NCBI GenBank assembly: GCA_937129145.1
Contig: CAKZMU010000014.1
Span: 1-64,000 of the forward strand
Reading direction: 5' to 3'
Source: an uncultured Lacinutrix sp.
GTDB taxonomy: Bacteria > Bacteroidota > Bacteroidia > Flavobacteriales > Flavobacteriaceae
Length of the DNA: 64,000 bases
The notes below the pieces were generated by a model. That model did not search any database. It saw only the letters and a list, made by a program, of their open reading frames with translations, and had not been told where the DNA came from. The position numbers were made by a program, and so were the translations under genes. Of this stretch, positions 1-11,747 are shown piece by piece. Numbering within the stretch: position 1 is the stretch's first letter; each line of letters begins with the position of its first letter.

Positions 1-3000
1 ATATTGTCTTCTATTATTTCTTTTACTTTGAACAAGAATTTTTCTTGAACCGAAGTTACTTTTACATCCTTTGGCTTCAAAAAGGATTCATTTTTATGGG
101 TTTTCTGAAGTTTCTTTCTAATCTCAATTAAGTTTTTAATTCTAATTTTTAATTCCTTTTCGTCAAATGGCTTTGTTAAATACGCATCGGCTCCGGTTTT
201 TAAACCTTCTAGTTTACTGTCTTGCGAAGCTTTTGCTGTGAGTAAAATAATAGGAATATGATCTGTGGTTTCGTCTGTCTTTAACTTATCACATAATTCA
301 TAACCATCCATTTTTGGCATCATAACATCACTAATAATTAAATCTGGCACAGATTTTTTTGCCATTTCAAGGCCTTCAACACCATTTACAGCTTTTGTAA
401 TACTATAATCTTTATCTAACAAACTAGTAATATAATCTCTTAAATCTGGATTATCTTCAACAACTAATAGCTCTAATTTAGTAGAGATTTCACCACCTAT
501 TATTTCATCGCTATCAATTGTTGGAGTGATTATATTTTCTTCAATAGTTTTAAGTTCTGGAATTGTGGTATTATTTTTTAGTAACTTTTTATCGTAAGGA
601 AAGTTTAGTACAAAGGTAGTTTCGGTTGAATTACTTTTTACGTTAACTGTTCCATTATGCAATTCAACTAGTTCTTTAACTAAAGCCAAACCTATTCCTG
701 TACCTTCAGTTTCTGAAGTGTTAATATCTCCTGCTTGATAGAATCTGTCAAAAATATAAGGCAGTTTGTCTTTTGGAATTTCACTTCCTGTATTTGAAAT
801 TTTAATGCTAATTATAGGGTTCTTTTTATTTGAATTTAACGTGCTTACTGATATTTTAATTTCACCATTATTAGGAGTAAATTTTATAGCATTAGAAATT
901 AGATTGGTTATAATTTTCTGCATTTTTTCTTTATCGAAATACAGGTTAATTTTTTTGGCTGGAAGAGATTTACTTAAACGTTTTCCATTGAAGTATACTT
1001 TTATTTGTTTTTCTTTTGCTAATGAATGATAGAGTAATATGACTTTTTTAGTAAACTGAAGGATGTCTGTTTTTAAAATGTTAAGATTCACTTGACTGTT
1101 TTCCAATTTAGATAAATCCAATAATTGATTGATTAGTTGTAATAAACGATGTGCATTTCGCTTAATGGTTTGACTATCTTGCGTATTGGCATCATTTTCG
1201 TTGTTAGAAATATGTTTATTTGCTAACCCAGTTATTACAGTTAAAGGTGTTCTAAATTCATGAGAAATATTAGCAAAAAAACTGGCTTTTATTTTATCTA
1301 ACTCTTGTAGTTTGGTAGCTTGATTTTGTAATTGTAAATTTTGTTTGTCTAACTGACTATTTTTGTTTGCTAAATCTTTTGTTTTAACATTAACCCGTTC
1401 TAAAAGCGCTTTTTTATCACGCTTTAGTTTTAAGGCTCTCCATTGAATAAATCCAAACAATAATGATAAAAAACAGATTACATATAACGCGTAAGCCAAA
1501 TTGGTTTTCCACCAAGGAGGTGTTATGATAACCACAACAGATTTAAAGTCTTCATTCCACAATCCATCATTATTTGATCCTTTTACATTAAAGGTGTACG
1601 TTCCTGGGTTCAAATTTGTATAGGTTGCAACTCGATTTTTAGAATCGGTATAAATCCAATTCTCATTAAAACCTTTCATTCTATATGCATATTGATTGCT
1701 TGATGAGTGTGTATAATCTAATGCAGCAAATTCAAAAGAAAAAATGTTATTTTCATAAGACAAAGTGATGCTGTCTTTAATAACAATGTTCTTATTCAAA
1801 TAAAATTCACCTTTTTTATTTGATGTATTTTTTTTGATTGTTACAGATTTATTGGATATTTTAAAATCGGTTATGACCACAGGTGGTTTGTGAATATTAA
1901 TGTTAATGCTATCAGGATAAAATTCAATCATCCCATTTACGCCTCCAAAGTATAATTTTCCATTACTTCCCTTTAAAGCTGCTCCAGAATAAAACTCATT
2001 AATAGACATTCCATTACCTTTATTAAAAGTTCTAAATGTTTCTGTTTTAGGATTAAATTTACTTAAGTGGTTTTTAGTAGCAATCCATAAATTATTACTA
2101 TTATCTTCTATAATAGAATTTATAATATTTTCAGGTAAGCCATCCTCTTTATAAAAATGACGGAATTCTCCTGTTTTTTCATCTAATACATTTAATCCAT
2201 AATTGGTGCCAACCCATAAAGATCCATAATAATCTTTATAAAGGTTAAGAATATAATTATTACTTATGCTTGTTGAGTCTAAAGGATTATTATGAAATGT
2301 TGTAAAGCTATCTGTATCACTATTTACTTTGTTTAATCCATCTGAAGTTGCAATCCAAAGCGTTCCTAAAGGATCTTCATAAATTTCAGTCATGTAATTG
2401 CTACTTAAATTTGAGGAAGATGATCCGAAGTAAGAATGCTTATCTTGTTCTTTATTGTATTTAATCAAACCATTTGATACTATCCCTAACCAAAGTATTC
2501 CGTTTTTATCTTCTTCAATTGATTTTAGAGGATAATTATTGAAATCGATGTCATCTATTTCATTTTGATGTTCAAATATATTTGTTGATTTATTCAATTT
2601 ATATAAGCCCTTATCGGTACCAATCAATACATCTTTATTTTTATTTATAATAAGATCATTAACAAATGATGGCTTATAATCTTGACCTTCTTTTTCGAAA
2701 CGATTATAATGTGTTGTGTTTCCATTTACATCAATTCTATTTACTGTTCCTTTGTCATTTGTCGACCAAATATCACCCTCAGAATTTTCACTTATAGACA
2801 TTATGGCTCCATCACTTAAACCATTAGTAGCAGCATTGTTTTTATGATGTATAAAATTTGAAGTTTTTTGAGGTTTGTAGATATTTACGCCTCCCAAAGT
2901 TGTTGCTATCCATAAAATATTTGATCTATCTTCAAATACTGATGTTACAGCTCCATCTGCAAGACTATTCTTATCTTGAGATTCATGTTTATAGATAGAA

Positions 3001-3941
3001 AATGTTTTCGATGTTTTATTAAATTTAATTAATCCATTTATTCCCGAACTACCAAGCCATAAATTACCAAAACTATCTTCTTTAATATTTTGAATATAAT
3101 TTCTATTGTTTTGTTGATCAATAATATAAGACGAAAATGTATTATCATTTTCATTAAATTTACTTAACCCACTATTGGTGCCTATCCAAAGAGTTCCTTG
3201 ATGATCTTCTAAAATTGAAAGCACTCTATTATGGTTAGAGTTCTTGTGATTAGAGGGATTATTTTTATATGTTGAAAATTTCCCAGTATTTCTATCTAAT
3301 AAACTCAAACCTCCAAAAGCTCCAATCCATAAACGTTCTGAGCTATCTTCATAGATATCATAAACATAGTTACTAGGTATAGTGGTGTTATCATTACGAT
3401 TTGATAAATAGTGTGTAAAGGTTCCTTTATCTTTATCCATTTTATTCAACCCTCCAGCCATAGTTCCTATCCATAGAGTTCCTTTTTTATCTTCATAGAT
3501 TGTTTTAATAAAGTTGTTGCTAATACTTGTGGAATCCGAAGGTTTATTTTCATAACGAACAAACGAGTCTGTTTCTCTAACATACTTATTTAACCCTCCA
3601 TTCTGAGTTCCTATCCATAGAATTCCTTGACTATCTTCAAATAAAACCATAGTCAAATCATCACTAATACTATTTGGGTCTTTACTATCAAAATTATAAG
3701 TGGTAATTGAATATCCATCATATTTGTTTAGACCAAAAGCACTGGCGAACCACATAAACCCTTGATGATCTTGTAAAATATCTGTGATATATAGCGAACT
3801 AAGTCCATCTTCAATTGATAAATGTTCAAAGTTCATAGTATGCTCTTTGTTTTGAGAGAACAAAGCGTAACTGATAAAGATTAAAAACAGAAAAAACACC
3901 TTTTTAAGTGATGTTCTATGAAGTGAAATGTTATTAATCAA
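1..3941 (-). CDS. Hybrid two-component system sensor/regulator (HTCS), C-terminus cut by window edge
   Basis: One frame stays open from 3941 to the left edge, about 1313 codons. Order: signal peptide (residues 1-28, ending near ALFSQ), periplasmic two-component-regulator propeller repeats (about 38-690), a Y_Y_Y domain (about 730-800), one membrane helix (about 810-833), a dimerisation coiled coil, HisKA with SHEFRTPL (His about 894), HATPase (NLISNAIKFTPNN, about 1015-1027), and a receiver domain with SDVMMPKMDG (phospho-Asp about 1205). The last codons, EKFLFKVKEIIEDN, are the usual entry to the AraC-type DNA-binding domain, which would lie outside. No ATG precedes the signal peptide; the best start is TTG at 3941. 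The first in-frame ATG (3836) would remove the signal peptide. HTCS proteins usually sense glycans and control SusC/SusD loci, but none is seen here. The divergent neighbour is a sulfur-type operon. Confidence 0.93.
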   Translation of the reverse strand, partial: MINNISLHRTSLKKVFFLFLIFISYALFSQNKEHTMNFEHLSIEDGLSSLYITDILQDHQGFMWFASAFGLNKYDGYSITTYNFDSKDPNSISDDLTMVLFEDSQGILWIGTQNGGLNKYVRETDSFVRYENKPSDSTSISNNFIKTIYEDKKGTLWIGTMAGGLNKMDKDKGTFTHYLSNRNDNTTIPSNYVYDIYEDSSERLWIGAFGGLSLLDRNTGKFSTYKNNPSNHKNSNHNRVLSILEDHQGTLWIGTNSGLSKFNENDNTFSSYIIDQQNNRNYIQNIKEDSFGNLWLGSSGINGLIKFNKTSKTFSIYKHESQDKNSLADGAVTSVFEDRSNILWIATTLGGVNIYKPQKTSNFIHHKNNAATNGLSDGAIMSISENSEGDIWSTNDKGTVNRIDVNGNTTHYNRFEKEGQDYKPSFVNDLIINKNKDVLIGTDKGLYKLNKSTNIFEHQNEIDDIDFNNYPLKSIEEDKNGILWLGIVSNGLIKYNKEQDKHSYFGSSSSNLSSNYMTEIYEDPLGTLWIATSDGLNKVNSDTDSFTTFHNNPLDSTSISNNYILNLYKDYYGSLWVGTNYGLNVLDEKTGEFRHFYKEDGLPENIINSIIEDNSNNLWIATKNHLSKFNPKTETFRTFNKGNGMSINEFYSGAALKGSNGKLYFGGVNGMIEFYPDSININIHKPPVVITDFKISNKSVTIKKNTSNKKGEFYLNKNIVIKDSITLSYENNIFSFEFAALDYTHSSSNQYAYRMKGFNENWIYTDSKNRVATYTNLNPGTYTFNVKGSNNDGLWNEDFKSVVVIITPPWWKTNLAYALYVICFLSLLFGFIQWRALKLKRDKKALLERVNVKTKDLANKNSQLDKQNLQLQNQATKLQELDKIKASFFANISHEFRTPLTVITGLANKHISNNENDANTQDSQTIKRNAHRLLQLINQLLDLSKLENSQVNLNILKTDILQFTKKVILLYHSLAKEKQIKVYFNGKRLSKSLPAKKINLYFDKEKMQKIITNLISNAIKFTPNNGEIKISVSTLNSNKKNPIISIKISNTGSEIPKDKLPYIFDRFYQAGDINTSETEGTGIGLALVKELVELHNGTVNVKSNSTETTFVLNFPYDKKLLKNNTTIPELKTIEENIITPTIDSDEIIGGEISTKLELLVVEDNPDLRDYITSLLDKDYSITKAVNGVEGLEMAKKSVPDLIISDVMMPKMDGYELCDKLKTDETTDHIPIILLTAKASQDSKLEGLKTGADAYLTKPFDEKELKIRIKNLIEIRKKLQKTHKNESFLKPKDVKVTSVQEKFLFKVKEIIEDN

Positions 3942-4332: not shown

Positions 4333-4470
4333 ATGAAATATTTAAAATACATCATAAGAACAATGAAAAAATGCAATAGACAATTAGATAATAACCATGA
4401 AATGTCTTGGATGGAATACAGGCGTCAGTGGTTATTAGATAATGATACATGGACTTGTAAAAAGAATTAA
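4333..4470 (+). CDS. Small hypothetical protein, 45 aa, first gene of the operon
   Basis: ATG at 4333 and TAA at 4468-4470 give a 45-residue basic peptide, beginning MKYLKYIIRTMKKC and ending DTWTCKKN. It has two cysteines (14 and 42), three tryptophans and no signal peptide or long hydrophobic run. It lies 26 bp before the methyltransferase gene and downstream of the putative promoter, so it should be on the operon transcript. I recognise no family. It could be a genuine small protein, perhaps a partner of the methyltransferase, or a leader ORF. No strong ribosome-binding site is visible, as is normal in this phylum. Confidence 0.5.
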   Translation: MKYLKYIIRTMKKCNRQLDNNHEMSWMEYRRQWLLDNDTWTCKKN

Positions 4471-4496
4471 AACAAAAATAAATTAAAACAATAATT

Positions 4497-5282
4497 ATGA
4501 AAACAATTAGTAAAAACCCCAACAAAGTAGATCGACACGATTTAGAATTAAGAGTAAAGGATATGTATAAAAAAGTGGCACTACATCCTGAAGTAGAATA
4601 CCATTTTGAAATGGGGAGAAAATTAGCTGAAAGAGTGCATTATCCTTCAAGCACTTTAGATAAGATTCCTAGTCAAGCCATTGACTCATTTTCTGGAGTA
4701 GGTTACTATTTTGATTTAGCTGAATTAAAAACTGGTGAAGCTGTTGTAGAATTAGGAAGTGGTTCTGGCATGGATGCCTTTTTTGCCGCTACACAAGTTG
4801 GAGAAACGGGTGAAATCATAGGTATTGATATGACTGATGAACAATTAGAAAAATCATCAAGATTAAGAGACGAAGTTGGTTTTAGTCAAGTGACTTTCAG
4901 AAAGAGCTATATCGAAGAACTGCCAATCATGTCCAATAGTGTTGATGCTGTAATCAGCAATGGAGTTATCAACTTATCAAGTGAAAAAGCAAAAGTATTT
5001 AGCGAAGCTGCTAGAGTATTAAAAACAGGAGGACGATTAGCTATTTCTGATATTGTTACAGAAGTAAAATTACCAGAAAACATAACATGCAACGCTACAT
5101 TATGGGCTGCATGTATTGGAGGAGCTATGCAAATTGATGCCTACAAACAACTTATTGATGATGCAGGTTTAGAGATTGTAAGCGTAAAAGACAACCCTTA
5201 TGCTTTCATTTCTGATAATGCAAAAGGCGCTACAAAGCAATTTGGTATCAAGAGTATTTCAATTCTTGCTATTAAGAAATAA
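4497..5282 (+). CDS. ArsM-like SAM-dependent methyltransferase
   Basis: A 261-aa soluble class I methyltransferase. The SAM-binding motif I is VVELGSGSG (83-91), the following acidic strand end is GIDMTDEQL (109-117), and the motif IV region is ISNGVINL (153-160). The stretch LWAACIGGA (202-210) matches the conserved Cys-containing segment of arsenite methyltransferases, so Cys206 corresponds to one arsenic-ligand cysteine of ArsM. The second C-terminal ligand cysteine is absent: the protein ends KQFGIKSISILAIKK. Cys198 is extra. The substrate is therefore open: arsenite, another metalloid, or a thiol/sulfide. It is followed 21 bp later by the redoxin gene and lies in one operon with a DsrE protein and a cysteine desulfurase. 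I am sure of the fold, not of the substrate. Confidence 0.85.
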   Translation: MKTISKNPNKVDRHDLELRVKDMYKKVALHPEVEYHFEMGRKLAERVHYPSSTLDKIPSQAIDSFSGVGYYFDLAELKTGEAVVELGSGSGMDAFFAATQVGETGEIIGIDMTDEQLEKSSRLRDEVGFSQVTFRKSYIEELPIMSNSVDAVISNGVINLSSEKAKVFSEAARVLKTGGRLAISDIVTEVKLPENITCNATLWAACIGGAMQIDAYKQLIDDAGLEIVSVKDNPYAFISDNAKGATKQFGIKSISILAIKK

Positions 5283-5303
5283 TTCATAAAAAAAACAGAA
5301 TTC

Positions 5304-5855
5304 ATGAAAAATTATATCACAAAAATCTTCTTAGGATTATCATTAATAAGTGCATTGGCTTATGGTCAAGAAACAGCATCTAATGAAACCTACGAAACCG
5401 TTGAAGTTAAAAATTTCAGTTTAAAATCTACAGACGGGAAAACAGTTAGTTTATCTGACTATCAAGGAAAATTTGTTGTCATTCATATTGCGACAACATG
5501 GTGTCCATACTGCAATGCTGAAGCACCTTATTTAGAGGAAATTTATAAAGAATATCACGATAAAAATGTAGAAGTTTTAATCATTGATGTTAAAGAGACA
5601 AAAGCATTGGTTCAAGAGCGAATTAAAAACAGATTCCAATTATCATTTCCAGTACTGTTAGATACAGAAGGTCTTGTTGCGGCAAGTTTTGCACCAGCAG
5701 ATGTATTACCAGAATTAGCTAGAGACGAAATTATGTTGGCTTCTAACATGTTGATAGATCCAGAAGGTAAGATTCAGTTTATGTCTCTTCTAGACACCAA
5801 GAATTTCGATGTAAAATTAGTTGAACTTAAAAAGAAATTAGATGAATTATTATAG
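5304..5855 (+). CDS. TlpA-type periplasmic thioredoxin-fold redoxin
   Basis: A 183-aa exported redoxin. The signal peptide is about residues 1-21 (ending ALAYG). The AhpC/TSA-TlpA core follows, with the redox motif WCPYC (Cys67 and Cys70), a central LIDPEGKIQF strand and a Lys-rich C-terminal helix. It probably reduces or oxidises thiols in the periplasm. Its last 14 bases overlap the start of the nDsbD-like gene, so translation of the two is coupled, and an nDsbD-type domain is the usual electron donor to TlpA-like proteins. It differs from the lipoprotein TlpA at 39166-40332, which carries an N-terminal DUF4369 domain. Confidence 0.85.
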   Translation: MKNYITKIFLGLSLISALAYGQETASNETYETVEVKNFSLKSTDGKTVSLSDYQGKFVVIHIATTWCPYCNAEAPYLEEIYKEYHDKNVEVLIIDVKETKALVQERIKNRFQLSFPVLLDTEGLVAASFAPADVLPELARDEIMLASNMLIDPEGKIQFMSLLDTKNFDVKLVELKKKLDELL

Positions 5856-6288
5856 CCTTATACTATGTTTCGTGTTATCAATAGTTGGTAATGAAACCGA
5901 ACAATTTGTTGAATTTAAAGACGCTGAAATCACAGTAGAAAAAGACAACGATTATGTTACAATAACACTTCCTTTTGAAGTTTTAGAAACTTATCACATT
6001 CAGTCTAATTCTGAAGTTTCAGAGGAACTAATTACAACGAAAATCACATTAAAAGAAAACAATGCTTATGAAATAGTAAGTCAAGAATTTTCTTTAAAAC
6101 AAGATGAAACGATAAGCCTTAATGGAGCTATGCACAAGGTTATCTCTAATCAATTTGAAGTTACAATTAGATTAAAACTTATTAAGAATGCTTCAAACAC
6201 AAAACTAGAAGGCGAGTTGTATTATCAAGCCTGTTCAGAGAGTCAATGTCTATTTCCGAGAAGCTTAAATTTTCAAATTTCAATATAA
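5842..6288 (+). CDS. Stand-alone nDsbD-like periplasmic thiol protein
   Basis: A 148-aa protein with a short hydrophobic leader (about 1-16) and a beta-rich body. The end YYQACSESQCLFPRS (127-141) resembles the redox loop of the DsbD N-terminal domain, with Cys131 and Cys136 separated by four residues. DsbD normally joins this domain to a transmembrane and a thioredoxin domain; here neither is present in the gene. The start ATG lies within the end of the redoxin gene (14-base overlap), suggesting coupled synthesis and a shared thiol-transfer reaction. The electron source across the membrane would have to come from elsewhere. The family call rests on the C-terminal motif and on context. Confidence 0.7.
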   Translation: MNYYSLILCFVLSIVGNETEQFVEFKDAEITVEKDNDYVTITLPFEVLETYHIQSNSEVSEELITTKITLKENNAYEIVSQEFSLKQDETISLNGAMHKVISNQFEVTIRLKLIKNASNTKLEGELYYQACSESQCLFPRSLNFQISI

Positions 6289-6316
6289 ATCAAATTAATA
6301 ATTAAAATCAAAAACA

Positions 6317-6682
6317 ATGTCAAACACAAAAAAATTAATCGTAACACTTTCAGCTAACGCTAAAAATGATGTATCAACAGTAGCTTTTACAGTCGCTAAT
6401 GCGGCATTATCTAAAGGCATGGAAGTCGGAATTTTTCTATCCTCTGATGGTGTCGAATTAAGTCGAGATGGAGCCACAGAGTTCACACATGTTCAACCAT
6501 TCAAAAAATTGAATGAACTTATCGAAGCTTTCGGAACCAATGGAGGCGTTATCTGGTCATGTGCACCATGTTTTAACCACAGAGGTTTAGATGCTGAAGA
6601 CACAGTACAAGGCACCAATGTTGTGGGAGCTGGACCAATGTTAGATTGGTTATTAGAAGGCGCACAAACATTAACATTTTAA
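6317..6682 (+). CDS. DsrE-family sulfur-relay protein
   Basis: A 121-aa cytoplasmic protein with a DsrE/DsrF-like Rossmann-type fold: an initial KLIVTLSANA strand, a helix VAFTVANAALSKG, a second strand VGIFLSSDGV, and the loop VIWSCAPCFNHRGL (78-91) with Cys82 and Cys85. Members of this family carry persulfide sulfur on a cysteine and pass it on between enzymes. It lies just upstream of the cysteine desulfurase gene (2 bp between stop and start), the natural sulfur donor for such a carrier. The CxxC arrangement could also bind a metal or metalloid. The family is clear; its partner is inferred. Confidence 0.85.
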   Translation: MSNTKKLIVTLSANAKNDVSTVAFTVANAALSKGMEVGIFLSSDGVELSRDGATEFTHVQPFKKLNELIEAFGTNGGVIWSCAPCFNHRGLDAEDTVQGTNVVGAGPMLDWLLEGAQTLTF

Positions 6683-6684
6683 AA

Positions 6685-7824
6685 ATGAAAACGAAACATA
6701 TATATCTTGATTCGCATGCATCTACACCTGTGGATCAAGATGTGCTTTCGGCTATGTTGCCTTATTTTACTGAGCATTATGGCAACGGTAATCATAAAGC
6801 GGGTTGGAAAACTAGTGAAGCCTTAGAAAATGCACGTTTTCAAGTATCCAATTTTATTGGAGCAAAACCATCAGAGATTACATTTACAGGTGGAGCAACC
6901 GAAGCGATAAATATGGCGCTTTTAGGATTAGCAAAAGCCAATACAAGTGATAGAAATCATATTATAACTCAACGTACTGAACACAAAGCGGTTTTGCAAT
7001 GTGTCGCTCATTTAAAGCAACAAGGCTATAAAGTAACAATGCTAGACGTTGATGCTGTTGGTAGAATTAATATCGAAGACTTAAAGAAATCAATTACTAA
7101 TAAAACTTTAGTGGTAGCTATTATGTTGATCAACAATGAAATTGGAACCGTACAACCTATTGAAGCTATTGGTGAGTTATGCAAAAACAATGGTGCAAAA
7201 TATTTCTGTGATATTACCCAAGGTGTTGGATGGTATCCTATACATTTAATAAAAATGAACATTGATATGGCAGCATTAGCTGCTCACAAATTTTATGGAC
7301 CAAGAGGTGTAGGCGCATTGTATATTAAAAAAACAAATCCACGAATTGCGACTGAACCTATTTTACTTGGTGGTGGACAAGAAAATGGATTACGACCAGG
7401 AACACATAACGTACCAGCAATTGTTGGTCTAGGTAAAGCTTGCGAATTATTACAACAAAATGGAAAAGAAACATTTGCTAAAATTCGAGATTTGCGAGAT
7501 TATTTAAAAAAGCAACTATTTACTTCTATTGATGGAATTAAACTAAATGGTTGCCCAGAAAACAGACATCCTGCCAATTTAAATATTTCAATTCCTTCAA
7601 TATCTGGAGAACGATTAAAAGAATTATTACCAAATGTGATGTTTTCTACAAGTTCTGCTTGTTCGAGTTCTTCACCAAAACCTTCTCATGTTATTTCAGC
7701 TTTAGGCGTCAATGATGAGATTATAAAATCTTCTTTCCGTTTAGGAATAAACAAGTACACTACTGTTGAAGACATAAATTACGTCGCACAAAAAATAATA
7801 CAAATAGTTAAAACAAATCATTAA
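6685..7824 (+). CDS. Cysteine desulfurase, IscS/NifS-like
   Basis: A 379-aa PLP enzyme that removes sulfur from cysteine and holds it as a protein persulfide. Landmarks: YLDSHASTPVD near the N-terminus (usually YLDNHATTP, so Asn is replaced by Ser10), GGATEAINMAL (69-79), TEHKAVL with His100, Lys202 in AHKFYGPRG as the PLP lysine, GQENGLRPGTHNVPA (231-245), and catalytic Cys326 in SSACSSSSPKPSHV. I chose ATG 6685 because it directly precedes the conserved N-terminus; an upstream ATG at 6646 would add 13 unrelated residues and overlap the DsrE gene. No iscU, sufE or other Fe-S assembly gene is adjacent, so this copy probably serves the operon rather than general Fe-S assembly (inference). Confidence 0.92.
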   Translation: MKTKHIYLDSHASTPVDQDVLSAMLPYFTEHYGNGNHKAGWKTSEALENARFQVSNFIGAKPSEITFTGGATEAINMALLGLAKANTSDRNHIITQRTEHKAVLQCVAHLKQQGYKVTMLDVDAVGRINIEDLKKSITNKTLVVAIMLINNEIGTVQPIEAIGELCKNNGAKYFCDITQGVGWYPIHLIKMNIDMAALAAHKFYGPRGVGALYIKKTNPRIATEPILLGGGQENGLRPGTHNVPAIVGLGKACELLQQNGKETFAKIRDLRDYLKKQLFTSIDGIKLNGCPENRHPANLNISIPSISGERLKELLPNVMFSTSSACSSSSPKPSHVISALGVNDEIIKSSFRLGINKYTTVEDINYVAQKIIQIVKTNH

Positions 7825-7835
7825 AACATAATCTG

Positions 7836-8399
7836 ATGAAAACAATCAACTTAAACAACCTAAAATTAGAATTATCCTTAAAAGCTAAAAACGGAATTGA
7901 CTTTATTTTTTCAGCCGGAATTATCTGGATAGCAATTACAATAATTTGGATGCTATCTTATACATCCTATAATAAAAGTATTTTCACCTTTATGATTGGC
8001 GGAATCTTATTGCCTTTAGCATTTTTATTATCAAAAATTTTAAAAACACAATGGAAAGTAAAACACAACCCGTTGCAACCACTTGGTTTATGGTTAAACT
8101 TTGCGCAATTATTTTACTTCCCTTTTCTAATCTTTATTCTTATTGCAAATCCAGATTATTTTGTAATGACTTATGCCATAATCACTGGAGCTCACCTTTT
8201 TCCTTATGCTTGGTTTTATAATCAAAAAAGCTATGCGGTTTTTGCTGGCCTTATATCAGTTGGTTCAATGCTAATCAGCATCAATATAGATAAAGAAAAC
8301 ATGTTTTATGTTCCTCTTTATACAAGTATCTGTCTCATCTTATTAGGTGTATGTTTATTCATATTCTATAAAAGAAAGTCAAAGTTGTCATTAAAATAA
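7836..8399 (+). CDS. DUF7010-like integral membrane protein
   Basis: A 187-aa polytopic protein with about six hydrophobic segments (near 20-42, 47-68, 86-103, 107-125, 130-147 and 155-175) and a basic tail KRKSKLSLK. The N-terminal helix before the first membrane segment and the central HNPLQPLGLWLNF motif resemble DUF7010 proteins, whose function is unknown to me. It starts 11 bp after the desulfurase stop, so it is probably the last gene of the operon. A transport or anchoring role for the sulfur or methylated product is possible, but nothing in the sequence shows it. Confidence 0.65.
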   Translation: MKTINLNNLKLELSLKAKNGIDFIFSAGIIWIAITIIWMLSYTSYNKSIFTFMIGGILLPLAFLLSKILKTQWKVKHNPLQPLGLWLNFAQLFYFPFLIFILIANPDYFVMTYAIITGAHLFPYAWFYNQKSYAVFAGLISVGSMLISINIDKENMFYVPLYTSICLILLGVCLFIFYKRKSKLSLK

Positions 8400-8513: not shown

Positions 8514-10316
8514 ATGAAAACTAAATTACTTTTTTTTACTGCATTTATTGTAATGCTACAAACAACAATAGCGCAAACAATTGCTATTCCAGACCCTAAT
8601 TTTGAACAAGCCTTAATAGATTTAGGTATTGATACAAATGGACTAAATGGAAACATTTTACAGTCTCAAGCCGTTGCTGTAAATGGACTAAATGTTAATG
8701 GGAAAAACATTAGCAGTCTGCAAGGTATAGAGGGTTTTGTAAACATAACCTCTCTACTTTGTAGTAATAATGAATTAACCAGTTTAGATGTTAGTAATAA
8801 TATCAGTTTAACGAATTTACAATGTGGAAATAATCAACTAACATCCCTTATTTTGGGGTCTAATCTTTCTGGTTTAGAAACATTAATTTGTAACTCTAAT
8901 CAATTAACGAGTTTTAATGTTAGTAATTCTCCAGCGTTAAAGTATTTATATTGCTTTAATAACCAACTCTCAAATTTAAATGTTACTAATAATACACTTT
9001 TGAAATATTTAATTTGTGATGGAAACGATCTAACAACACTAAACTTAGCAAACAACACGAATTTAGAAATATTGGACTGTTTTAGCAATCAATTAGTAAA
9101 TTTAGATTTAAGTAATAATACACTTTTAGAAGACATAGATTGTAATAATAATCAAATTACAAATTTAATAGTAAACAATAATCCTGCTTTAACTGAATTA
9201 GTTTGTCATACCAATCAAATTACAAATATAGATGTAAGTAATAGCCCAAATTTAACTCACTTTAGAGTTAATAATAATCAATTGACTAACTTAAATGTTA
9301 AGAATGGAAACAATACAAATATTAGCGTATTTAATGCAGAAAATAACCCGAATCTTACCTGCGTTCAAGTAGATAATGCAACCTATAGTAATGCAACCTG
9401 GTCAGATTATATAGATTCGCAAACTAGTTTTAATCAATCTTGTCCTACAATTACAATTCCAGATGCAAATTTTGAACAAGCCTTAATAGATTTAGGTTAT
9501 GACACCAATGGACTTACAGGTGATATTCTGCAAGGTGAAGCAGAACTAGTTACAGCATTAGATGTTAGTAACCAAAACATCAACTCATTACAAGGTATTG
9601 AAGGTTTTGTAAACTTACTTCATTTATTGTGTTACGATAATTCATTGTCAAATTTAGATGTTAGCCATAATACAGCATTAGTATCATTAGATTGCTCAAA
9701 CAACCAAATAAGCAATTTGGTTATTAATAATAATCCAGCATTAATCGGATTAAATTGTAGAGGGAATAATTTGTCAAGTTTAAACTTAGAAAACAGTGTG
9801 CTATTAGAAAACTTAAATTGTTTTAATAATAGTATAACTCATTTAGATTTAACCAACAGTTCCGTCTTAGATTTTTTATTGGTAGACAACAATCAATTAA
9901 CAAGCCTGAATGTAAAAAACGGAAATAATACTAACGTAAATTTCTTTAGTGCAATAGGAAATCCTAATCTTACGTGTATAGAAGTAGATGATGCAACATA
10001 CAGCACTACAAATTGGACAAGTATAGATGCACAAACTTCTTTTAGCGAAGATTGTGCAGGAGCATTAAGTGTAGAAGAAGACATTTTATTAGGCACAGTG
10101 AGTTTATATCCAAATCCATCTTCAAATGTGTTTCAAATAAATGGGCTTCAAGAAGATTCACAAATAAAAGTCTATGATATTAATGGTAGAGTCATTTTAA
10201 CTACAGTAGTTGTAAACAATCAACCAATAAATGTTAGCAATCTACAAAAAGGGCTGTATTTAGTCAATGTTTCAAATACTAAAGGTCAAACCACAAAAAA
10301 GTTAATTATAAACTAA
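8514..10316 (+). CDS. Secreted leucine-rich-repeat protein with T9SS sorting domain
   Basis: A 600-aa extracellular or cell-surface protein. A signal peptide (about 1-20, TIA|Q) is followed by two large homologous units, starting near residues 23 and 313. Each opens with IPDxNFEQALIDLGxDTNG and a GIEGFVN segment. Short LRR-like repeats follow, built on the pattern NNQLTSLDVSNN with a conserved Cys strand (LxCxxN), and each unit closes with NPNLTCVQVD or NPNLTCIEVD. The C-terminus (about 520-600), with LYPNPSSNVFQI and KGLYLVNVSNTKGQTTKKLI, is a type A T9SS sorting domain. It is followed by two lipoprotein paralogues carrying the same opening and closing motifs, so the three form a local gene family. 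A binding or adhesion role is likely; the ligand is unknown. Confidence 0.9.
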   Translation: MKTKLLFFTAFIVMLQTTIAQTIAIPDPNFEQALIDLGIDTNGLNGNILQSQAVAVNGLNVNGKNISSLQGIEGFVNITSLLCSNNELTSLDVSNNISLTNLQCGNNQLTSLILGSNLSGLETLICNSNQLTSFNVSNSPALKYLYCFNNQLSNLNVTNNTLLKYLICDGNDLTTLNLANNTNLEILDCFSNQLVNLDLSNNTLLEDIDCNNNQITNLIVNNNPALTELVCHTNQITNIDVSNSPNLTHFRVNNNQLTNLNVKNGNNTNISVFNAENNPNLTCVQVDNATYSNATWSDYIDSQTSFNQSCPTITIPDANFEQALIDLGYDTNGLTGDILQGEAELVTALDVSNQNINSLQGIEGFVNLLHLLCYDNSLSNLDVSHNTALVSLDCSNNQISNLVINNNPALIGLNCRGNNLSSLNLENSVLLENLNCFNNSITHLDLTNSSVLDFLLVDNNQLTSLNVKNGNNTNVNFFSAIGNPNLTCIEVDDATYSTTNWTSIDAQTSFSEDCAGALSVEEDILLGTVSLYPNPSSNVFQINGLQEDSQIKVYDINGRVILTTVVVNNQPINVSNLQKGLYLVNVSNTKGQTTKKLIIN

Positions 10317-10358
10317 CACTTTGTATTTATTAAATACATGAACTGATTAGTAGCGATG

Positions 10359-10384
10359 AAAACCATCATCTCGATGGTGGTTTT
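10359..10384 (+). terminator. Hairpin between LRR genes, probable terminator
   Basis: AAAACCATCAT, loop CTCG, then ATGGTGGTTTT, with one wobble pair and a following T-rich stretch. It lies 28 bp before the next start codon. A similar hairpin precedes the third LRR gene, and both lie inside short ATG-initiated frames (see findings), so a leader role is also possible. Confidence 0.6.
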
Positions 10385-10411
10385 CTTTAACAAACTATAA
10401 AAACAAACACG

Positions 10412-11053
10412 ATGAAAAAAATAATAAAAAAACAAAAACACAGATTAGAAAAAGCACAGTTTTATTTAATCTATGCAATGGCTATTGCCTATATGGTTTT
10501 AGCATTTGCATCACTAACATCTTGTAGTAGTGATGATACTGATGATGGCAATGCAATTACTAACACAGTCAATATACTAGATTTAAACTTTGAACAATCC
10601 TTAATCGATTTAGGTATTGATACTAACGGACTAAATGGAAACATTCTTAAAGTAGATGCTGAAGCGGTAACAAATTTAGAATTAAATGAGAAAAACATTA
10701 TTAGCCTTCAAGGTATTGAAGCATTTACAAATTTAGAGTCTTTGTTTTGTGTATCCAATCACCTTACAAGTATAGATGTGAGTAATAATCTAAATTTAGA
10801 AACCTTATACTGCTTTAATAATGAAATAAAACATTTAGATGTAAGCAATAATTCAAACTTAAAGGTATTATCATGTGGTTCTAATAAGTTGGAATTCTTA
10901 AATGTTAAAAATGGAAACAATATAAATATGGAATATTTTAATACAGTTTATAATCCATACTTAAATTGTATTGAAGTAGATGACTATGCTTACAGTAATA
11001 ATAATTGGATTCATATAGATGCACAAACTAGTTTTAGTGAAGATTGTAATTAA
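10412..11053 (+). CDS. LRR lipoprotein, probably surface-exposed (copy 1)
   Basis: A 213-aa paralogue of one unit of the preceding secreted LRR protein. The unusually long basic N-region (KKIIKKQKHRLEK) leads into a hydrophobic helix and the lipobox LTSC (Cys38). SSDDTDD after the Cys resembles the acidic lipoprotein export signal described in Flavobacterium and Capnocytophaga, so the protein is probably flipped to the cell surface. It then shows NFEQSLIDLGIDTNG, GIEAFTNLESL, three or four short repeats, and the closing CIEVDDYAYS...AQTSFSEDC. It has no T9SS domain; lipidation replaces it as the anchor. Function beyond surface binding is unknown. Confidence 0.85.
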   Translation: MKKIIKKQKHRLEKAQFYLIYAMAIAYMVLAFASLTSCSSDDTDDGNAITNTVNILDLNFEQSLIDLGIDTNGLNGNILKVDAEAVTNLELNEKNIISLQGIEAFTNLESLFCVSNHLTSIDVSNNLNLETLYCFNNEIKHLDVSNNSNLKVLSCGSNKLEFLNVKNGNNINMEYFNTVYNPYLNCIEVDDYAYSNNNWIHIDAQTSFSEDCN

Positions 11054-11059
11054 TAGTTG

Positions 11060-11094
11060 AAATCACTTTTTATAGCATATAAGTAGTGATTTTT
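11060..11094 (+). terminator. Probable terminator after LRR lipoprotein 1
   Basis: AAATCACT and AGTGATTT form an 8-bp stem around a 17-base loop, followed by a T-run. It starts 7 bp after the gene's stop codon. Confidence 0.5.
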
Positions 11095-11114
11095 ATAAAC
11101 ACAAAACAAATTAT

Positions 11115-11142
11115 GAAAGCCATCATGAGAATGGTGGTTTTC
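11115..11142 (+). other. Hairpin in the leader of LRR lipoprotein 2
   Basis: GAAAGCCATCAT, loop GAGA, then ATGGTGGTTTTC, with two wobble pairs. It is nearly the same hairpin as at 10359-10384 and sits at the same place, 21 bp before the next ATG. The preceding gene already has a terminator at 11060, so this one may be part of the repeated cassette or a leader element. Confidence 0.5.
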
Positions 11143-11162
11143 TTAAACAAAATACCAAAACA

Positions 11163-11747
11163 ATGAAAAATTCAAGACACATAATTTTAAGATTATTATT
11201 AATACTAGCACTATTTATCTCATGTAGTAGTGATGATGACAACCCAGAAAGTAACACCGTCACTATTCCAGATACAAATTTTGAGCAAGCCTTAATAGAT
11301 TTAGGCTACGACACTAATGGATTAAATGGAAACATTTTAAAAGTAGATGCAGAGGCAGTGACTAATTTAAACGTAATAAGTAAAGATATTCATAGTTTAC
11401 AAGGTATAGAGGCTTTTGTCAATCTTGAAATTCTTCAATGTGTAGGAAATGAGTTAATAACTTTAGATGTAAGTAATAACATAAAGTTAGAATACTTAAC
11501 TTGCTTTAACAATCATCTAACAACTTTAGATGTAAGTGCTAATACAATTTTATTCCATTTATCATGTGCTAATAACGAACTCGAAAGTTTAAATATAAAA
11601 AACGGCAATAATAATGCTGATAATAATTTTTTTAATGCAACAGGCAATCCTAATTTAACCTGTATAGAAGTTGATGATGTAGCCTATAGTACTAATAACT
11701 GGATGCATATAGATAACGTTGCAAGCTTTAGTGAAGCGTGTGATTAA
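11163..11747 (+). CDS. LRR lipoprotein, probably surface-exposed (copy 2)
   Basis: A 194-aa close paralogue of the preceding gene. The signal peptide ends with lipobox FISC (Cys21), and SSDDDNPE follows as an acidic surface-export signal. The body has NFEQALIDLGYDTNG, KVDAEAVTNLNV, GIEAFVNLEIL, short NN(x)L(x)xLDVS repeats and the closing NPNLTCIEVDDVAYS. The N-terminal region is shorter than in copy 1, but the LRR unit aligns throughout. The start ATG overlaps the stop of a 17-codon frame (11113-11166) in the ATGA manner. It probably arose by tandem duplication. Confidence 0.85.
   Translation: MKNSRHIILRLLLILALFISCSSDDDNPESNTVTIPDTNFEQALIDLGYDTNGLNGNILKVDAEAVTNLNVISKDIHSLQGIEAFVNLEILQCVGNELITLDVSNNIKLEYLTCFNNHLTTLDVSANTILFHLSCANNELESLNIKNGNNNADNNFFNATGNPNLTCIEVDDVAYSTNNWMHIDNVASFSEACD

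Follow-up and report, generated by a model that had tools for sequence, protein, structure and literature searches.

Among the closest described counterparts of the locus considered here are MddH and the pair MddM1/MddM2, S-adenosylmethionine (SAM) methyltransferases of the UbiE/UbiG kind from a sulfur and oxidative-stress setting; MddM1 and MddM2 are reported to methylate hydrogen sulfide (H2S) and methanethiol (MeSH), their transcription rises with MeSH, H2S and H2O2, and they improve growth of E. coli under the same three compounds (PMC12904073). A review holds that unknown Mdd enzymes are possible in some Bacteroidota isolates (PMC13360808). Our subject is a run of seven genes at positions 4333-8399 of a 64,000-nucleotide stretch (the window) from an uncultured Lacinutrix sp. 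(contig CAKZMU010000014.1). We lean, while holding the idea a little short of probable, toward reading this run from its sequence as a module for sulfur S-methylation – with sulfide, persulfide or methanethiol as the acceptor – fed by a cysteine desulfurase and a DsrE-family carrier. Set against MddH, MddM1 and MddM2 by description only, its methyltransferase differs in belonging to a clade of ArsM-like proteins of 261 amino acids (MddM1 and MddM2 have 210 and 204) and in having, within the operon, a desulfurase and a DsrE protein of its own; its clade also has genomic ties to MddA.

An earlier note, made from the letters of the window, had described seven close-set or overlapping genes and had placed a cysteine at 326 of the desulfurase and a CxxC at 82/85 of DsrE. 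The open reading frame (ORF) list of the window bears this out to the letter: seven ORFs in the same direction, with coordinates unchanged and separated, in operon order, by 26, 21, -14, 28, 2 and 11 bases, the next gene following 114 bases further on.

4333..4470, + strand: 45-amino-acid peptide, first gene of the run; no Pfam or NCBIfam family above cut-off
4497..5282, + strand: class I SAM methyltransferase of a non-ArsM clade, 261 amino acids; Pfam Methyltransf_31
5304..5855, + strand: TlpA/ResA-type thioredoxin-fold redoxin with WCPYC; Pfam AhpC-TSA/Redoxin; signal-peptide-like start by eye
5842..6288, + strand: stand-alone DsbD N-terminal-domain-like (nDsbD-like) protein, YQACSESQCLFP; DsbD_N 23.6 bits; signal-peptide-like start by eye
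6317..6682, + strand: DsrE-family sulfur carrier; Pfam DsrE 53.0 bits; C82/C85
6685..7824, + strand: class V cysteine desulfurase, catalytic-loop Cys326; Pfam Aminotran_5, 265 bits
7836..8399, + strand: DUF7010 membrane protein; Pfam DUF7010 206.8 bits

The desulfurase start is taken as the ATG at 6685; the ORF list also offers a TTG at 6646. Promoter and terminator counts over the operon (23 against 24.6 and 2 against 2.0, respectively) lie at chance level, and the scan is thus uninformative on internal transcription starts.

As to the nature of the methyltransferase, a pattern search across 84,980 species genomes returned 159 relatives, the best 80 of which (L003-L082) split clearly into one set at 53-86% identity to the window protein (L003-L045) and another at 33-49% (L046-L082), the latter serving as ArsM controls. 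In a tree of 113 rows, built without five short ones (L033, L040-L043), 48 rows of the first type fall on one side of a branch with SH-aLRT support of 98. The division is echoed by the residues. The window methyltransferase has only two cysteines, C198 and C206, with Val68 and Gly156 at the arsenic-binding positions of ArsM; this Val-Gly pair recurs in all 44 clade rows, and Cys206 is retained in each of the 43 that are readable there. Throughout the clade cysteine is replaced at positions 40, 41, 68 and 156 (window numbering), whereas the ArsM set has cysteine at all five, position 206 included, in 37/37 rows. Further rows tell the same story (11/11 clade members with the replacements; Cys68, Cys156 and Cys206 kept in 27/27 ArsM rows from the phylum), as does alignment to the solved AS3MT and CrArsM. 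We take the As(III)-binding set of CmArsM to be Cys72, Cys174 and Cys224, C72A and C224A being found in PDB titles. The clade thus has the fold of ArsM/AS3MT and the equivalent of Cys206 of AS3MT (Cys224 of CmArsM), but two of the arsenic-binding cysteines are replaced in each member examined.

A predicted model (pLDDT 89.8) has the class I fold, and its nearest solved structures are ArsM proteins (4fr0: Z 25.9, root-mean-square deviation 2.0 over 214 residues). The enzyme is thus, as modelled, of ArsM fold with an altered acceptor site and, judged by its residues, not a typical ArsM. Nor is it of MddA type: NnrU is not among its 18 Pfam families, and NF045656 lies outside the best 25 of its 57 NCBIfam matches. 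Its best NCBIfam model is the arsenite methyltransferase PRK11873 (NF008823), which together with the ArsM structures is what speaks for arsenic methylation, the thiol proteins supplying reductant – an option that the earlier note had raised. The score falls short of the cut-off (218.8 against 263 bits; 210-223 for four other clade members), although the model discriminates weakly, since the five ArsM rows run against it, for the most part trimmed, were likewise below the cut-off (172-195 bits). More tellingly, equivalents of Cys72 and Cys174 are absent clade-wide, and contig 72 of the same genome holds another ArsM-like gene, this one Cys-complete. On these grounds we set arsenic aside as the principal explanation and give it very little credence.

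Evidence on function comes chiefly from the company the enzyme keeps. We compared the flanks of 53 clade loci (the window, L003-L045, L119-L125, L127 and L128; several cut by contig ends) with those of the 37 ArsM controls within a range of 4 kb. L014 and L016, and L033 and L040, are pairs each from a single metagenome-assembled genome; repeats of L044 (L084, L126), L127 (L085) and L005 (L117) were dropped. DsrE stands near the methyltransferase at 18 of the 53 clade loci and at none of the controls, although the neighbour profiles were iterated on the clade loci before being applied to the controls, which favours the clade, and the control flanks are shorter in total (241,378 against 374,312 bases). 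The remaining families, clade against ArsM, are extracytoplasmic function (ECF) sigma factors (12/53, 0/37), small anti-sigma-like proteins (12/53, 1/37), OsmC (10/53, 0/37), rhodanese (8/53, 2/37), desulfurase (the window and six others, 7/53, 0/37), TlpA (6/53, 1/37), DsbDN (6/53, 0/37), DUF4395 (6/53, 0/37), TusA (3/53, 0/37) and metallo-beta-lactamase (MBL) fold proteins (5/53, 0/37); the last are Lactamase_B by Pfam, fall under all curated cut-offs checked and are persulfide-dioxygenase-like by eye only. One or more of the six sulfur families (DsrE, desulfurase, TusA, rhodanese, DUF4395, MBL) is present at 26 of the 53 loci.

When loci at or above 85% identity were merged the DsrE link persisted (16/47 against 0/24 clusters; Fisher p 0.0005), as did those to ECF sigma (11/47, p 0.007) and OsmC (9/47, p 0.02). 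The association between DsrE and the methyltransferase is thus firm, while that with the desulfurase is characteristic of Bacteroidota. By record title, nine of the DsrE partners are from Bacteroidota, eight from Pseudomonadota and one from an actinobacterial locus.

The DsrE protein itself is a clear family member (PF02635, 53.0 against a cut-off of 22.7 bits). CxxC is present in 19/19 rows and invariant in an 18-row alignment from which L045 was excluded, where G76, G77, C82 and C85 are all unchanging. Close homologues (87-100%) occur in two of 397 genomes of the family, both of them methyltransferase-positive; one further positive genome (G495) has no close DsrE. Eight other family genomes have a DsrE of 32-37% identity beside rhodanese, the clade methyltransferase being absent from those 3.4-kb loci. 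As an aside, L131-L138 pair a CxxC-type DsrE with rhodanese, in most cases not far from a regulator that by eye is AraC-type; two of the regulators share 33-41% identity with five that lie close to MddA genes.

Resemblance to DsrEFH and TusBCD raises the possibility of a Tus-like relay for thiolation of tRNA or a cofactor, the methyltransferase acting on the thiolated product. The window does combine a desulfurase with a DsrE-fold protein, TusA adjoins DsrE in L027 and L038, and the DsrE model resembles DsrEFH and TusBCD among others, with the shared fold and a cysteine at the strand end before a helix. Unlike those complexes, however, the window DsrE is stand-alone and has a CxxC; it scores far below the curated cut-offs (TusD 12.0 against 89.25 bits, TusC 13.1 against 94.15), and no second or third subunit was found in the operon. 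A relay of this kind also leaves the periplasmic partners unexplained, and with the methyltransferase in 3 of 395 phylum genomes it is too sparse for a core modification. We consider it highly improbable.

The desulfurase is of class V by its Aminotran_5 match together with Cys326, and is below the NifS and IscS equivalog cut-offs (401.5 against 530.75 and 386.8 against 643.2 bits). Desulfurases are able to release selenium as well as sulfur. The enzyme might therefore act as a selenocysteine lyase, the methyltransferase forming methylselenol or dimethyl selenide as a volatile product; the nearest NCBIfam families include models of methyltransferase selenoproteins. Within the operon we recognised no selenium-specific gene (the genome was not searched for such genes), and all seven ORFs read under translation table 11. 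A selenium route seems to us improbable.

In the two periplasmic thiol proteins the cysteines are conserved: the redoxin keeps WCPYC in all six operon copies, and the nDsbD-like protein, whose match to DsbD_N (PF11412) is just under the cut-off of 25 bits, has CxxxxC in five of six, the sixth (L004) being cut by the contig end. DsbD_TM was found at two places in the window's own genome, one with a DsbD_N-like part.

How much of the gene set travels together? Methyltransferase, redoxin, nDsbD-like protein, DsrE and desulfurase are found together at four of the 53 loci (the window, L005, L006 and L007), all Flavobacteriaceae-like, and always in that order, with inserts in three: a homocysteine S-methyltransferase-family gene in L005 and a Dabb gene in L006 and L007. 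The smaller combinations of methyltransferase, DsrE and desulfurase (7/53) and of methyltransferase, TlpA and DsbDN (6/53), the window belonging to both, show that the genes are not scattered without a cluster. The operon of sulfur source, carrier and SAM methyltransferase that the earlier note had described is thereby borne out and partly conserved beyond the genus; the full set is not, and the co-occurrence of all six families in distant genomes that it had looked for as support is not seen, DUF7010 standing with the methyltransferase only in the window.

A second line of evidence links the clade to MddA, to which the methyltransferase is unrelated (in Pfam the L019 copy of MddA falls to NnrU). 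L019 has a curated MddA (NF045656, 332.6 against a cut-off of 270 bits) that begins about 55 bases after the methyltransferase. At E<=1e-55, MddA occurs in 11 of 44 clade genomes (leaving aside the second loci L016 and L040 and seven plasmid loci) and in 2 of 36 ArsM genomes (L059 left out), with 6 and 1 over the curated cut-off, a comparison confounded by taxonomy. Within the window's family the same threshold gives 4/7 methyltransferase-positive genomes (the window, L003-L007 and L128; the three without it include two small metagenome-assembled genomes) against about 23/247 others (Fisher p 0.003, uncorrected for kinship); the sample comprised 249 genomes, the others numbering 246 or 247, and methyltransferase status came from separate phylum and family searches.

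MddA and the clade methyltransferase also have neighbour families in common. Directly upstream of the MddA-like gene of the window's own genome lies that genome's best match (55% over 592 amino acids) to the TPR protein flanking the methyltransferase in L006 and L007; the next-best match reaches 33% over about 266. The L006 protein matches TPR families only in Pfam, its LuxR-like end being recognised by eye. DsrE is beside MddA in L161, and an acyl-CoA-dehydrogenase-family protein is beside it in L155 and L158, one 57-60% identical being beside the methyltransferase in L037. Across the ten MddA loci of clade genomes other than L019, some cut by contig ends, the count is TPR 3, acyl-CoA-dehydrogenase family 2, and LRR, OsmC and DsrE 1 each; one locus has a protein weakly similar (23%) to the window regulator. 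MddA loci in 11 of 23 methyltransferase-negative family genomes have no TPR, LRR or DsrE neighbour; OsmC occurs at two, the acyl-CoA-dehydrogenase family at one, and a partial match to the window regulator (30% over 263 amino acids) at one. The TPR link to MddA thus looks specific, in a small and related sample, while the OsmC and acyl-CoA-dehydrogenase links are general to MddA. A separate observation from the window's genome concerns the MddA-like locus on contig 9 (L153:307-3708, minus strand), where a frame of 1133 amino acids unites an MddA-like membrane methyltransferase and LRR-type repeats, the repeat part opening with a signal-peptide-like stretch (by eye); the frame could represent a genuine fusion or a pair of genes lacking an intervening stop.

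Sulfur S-methylation would draw these threads together as follows. The desulfurase would take sulfur from cysteine as a persulfide on Cys326; the CxxC of DsrE would carry it, or sulfide would be released from it; the methyltransferase would transfer the methyl group of SAM to that sulfur, with methanethiol, and perhaps also dimethyl sulfide (DMS), as product, as is the case for MddH and MddM1. In some genomes an MddA-type membrane enzyme encoded elsewhere could further methylate the methanethiol, while the TlpA-like and nDsbD-like proteins, possibly supplied by the separate DsbD-type protein of the genome, would maintain the thiols and disulfides so formed in a reduced state in the periplasm. 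The course from cysteine to methylated sulfur is one that we infer from protein families and linkage. Its likeliest role would be to dispose of surplus reduced sulfur, or to release it in volatile form, when the cell is under thiol or oxidative stress. Induction of MddM1 and MddM2 by MeSH, H2S and H2O2 fits redox-type partners such as OsmC near the clade. In a channelled variant, which the same gene set could accommodate but which we regard as unlikely, the persulfide on the DsrE CxxC would be methylated directly, taking cysteine to methanethiol or DMS without free H2S, by a clade found in both bacteria and archaea.

Weighing against sulfur S-methylation, besides the bias of the profiles and the taxonomic confounding already given, are several observations. 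With cysteine as its source, a desulfurase produces sulfide, whereas clearing H2S from outside would consume it. After merging, the desulfurase (6/47, p 0.07) and DUF4395 (5/47, p 0.12) links are not significant. Both locus sets contain near-duplicates, and it is those among the ArsM controls that tell here. None of the six sulfur families is near the methyltransferase at 27 of the 53 loci (among them L004, cut before the place of DsrE). The MddA-like protein of the window's genome, at 233 bits, falls below the curated 270; the three loci joining TPR and MddA stem from related genomes; and OsmC and acyl-CoA-dehydrogenase neighbours recur at MddA loci where the methyltransferase is missing. Archaeal copies pair with OsmC (nine loci, with one more in an actinobacterium) or with carboxymuconolactone-decarboxylase-family genes, and the neighbour is a berberine-type flavin oxidase in L128 and a SnoaL protein in L127. 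From such neighbours the substrate may differ, or be organic.

That last point leads to the strongest rival, a thiol or electrophile/oxidative-stress methyltransferase acting on an organic or low-molecular-weight thiol, with the sulfur proteins as accessory redox partners in some lineages. OsmC and ECF sigma factors, the loci lacking every listed sulfur family, and neighbours such as GYD and cupin proteins alongside the decarboxylase, oxidase and SnoaL families count in its favour. Against it, the commonest single partner is a CxxC-bearing DsrE, rhodanese, desulfurase, DUF4395 and TusA recur, and neighbours are held in common with MddA. We rate the organic-thiol alternative doubtful, if well short of negligible.

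The clade is sparsely distributed across Bacteroidota, Pseudomonadota, Actinomycetota and archaea. At a score of at least 430 bits it is present in those same three of 395 phylum genomes, the next match scoring 217 bits, and in 3 of 397 family genomes, a sample in which two genomes of the same genus are without it; a relative at 53-57% was found on eight plasmid records from haloarchaea. From this sparse, cross-domain and plasmid-borne distribution the methyltransferase looks to have moved horizontally. Nine haloarchaeal copies (L119-L123, L125, L030, L034 and L039), seven on records titled plasmid, adjoin an OsmC-family gene. Such a distribution, together with variable gene content and the same-genus genomes without the methyltransferase, is also what a loose assembly of horizontally moved genes, with no single pathway, would produce. 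The common gene order at four loci, three of them with inserts, and a DsrE link that spans three phyla and is absent from the controls run counter to this, and we think it an improbable account.

Further features flank the operon:

3..3941, - strand: hybrid two-component-type regulator with propeller, Y_Y_Y, kinase and receiver domains, truncated at the contig start; divergent from the operon
8514..11747, + strand: three LRR-type repeat proteins directly downstream, the first of them carrying LRR_4 plus a Por secretion tail

The regulator has the Pfam domains Reg_prop, Y_Y_Y, HisKA, HATPase_c and Response_reg, its C-terminal part being lost at the contig start. The earlier note had called the operon linked to a hybrid two-component system (HTCS), and a divergent regulator does adjoin it; close homologues upstream of the methyltransferase are confined to L004 (65% over 1343 amino acids) and, in part, L003 (56% over 455), with weaker matches (24-31%) in L018, L019 and L036, and we therefore rejected the HTCS as a defining part of the module. 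Elsewhere the regulators near clade copies are an ECF sigma factor with an HxxxCxxC anti-sigma-like protein, an ArsR-rhodanese protein, a TPR protein, or a kinase and a response regulator as separate proteins; the AraC, ArsR-rhodanese and separate-kinase names were given by eye, and the L027 anti-sigma-like protein, without a Pfam match at 1e-5, is named from its motif. A second methyltransferase lies beside ECF sigma and anti-sigma-like genes at the bacterial loci L015:9744-10544, L012:9674-10456 and L032:5456-6256, the first two checked with Pfam.

Homologues of the 45-amino-acid peptide occur directly upstream of the methyltransferase in L004 (clear: 44%, E 7e-7) and L003 (weak: 32%, E 0.16). 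DUF7010, found near the methyltransferase at one of the 53 loci – the window – and present in a second copy elsewhere in the genome, was rejected as part of the module; its position here is probably incidental. The three tandem proteins downstream are built of IPDxNFEQALIDLG-like units, and their family recurs in the genome at the MddA-like locus, at one contig end and as two weak partial matches.

Among the papers that our literature searches listed, in part the top of longer lists and without most subscription papers or the MddH paper, we found no description of the clade or of the gene set, and no assignment of the clade to sulfur methylation. By the nearest curated model these enzymes would be called arsenite methyltransferases, while their residues say that they are not typical ones, and surveys of arsenic cycling could consequently miscount the clade. 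Should the enzymes prove to methylate sulfur, they would constitute a further Mdd-type clade, one reaching Flavobacteriaceae and haloarchaea, relevant to biological DMS and methanethiol and placed here in an operon equipped with its own desulfurase and sulfur carrier.

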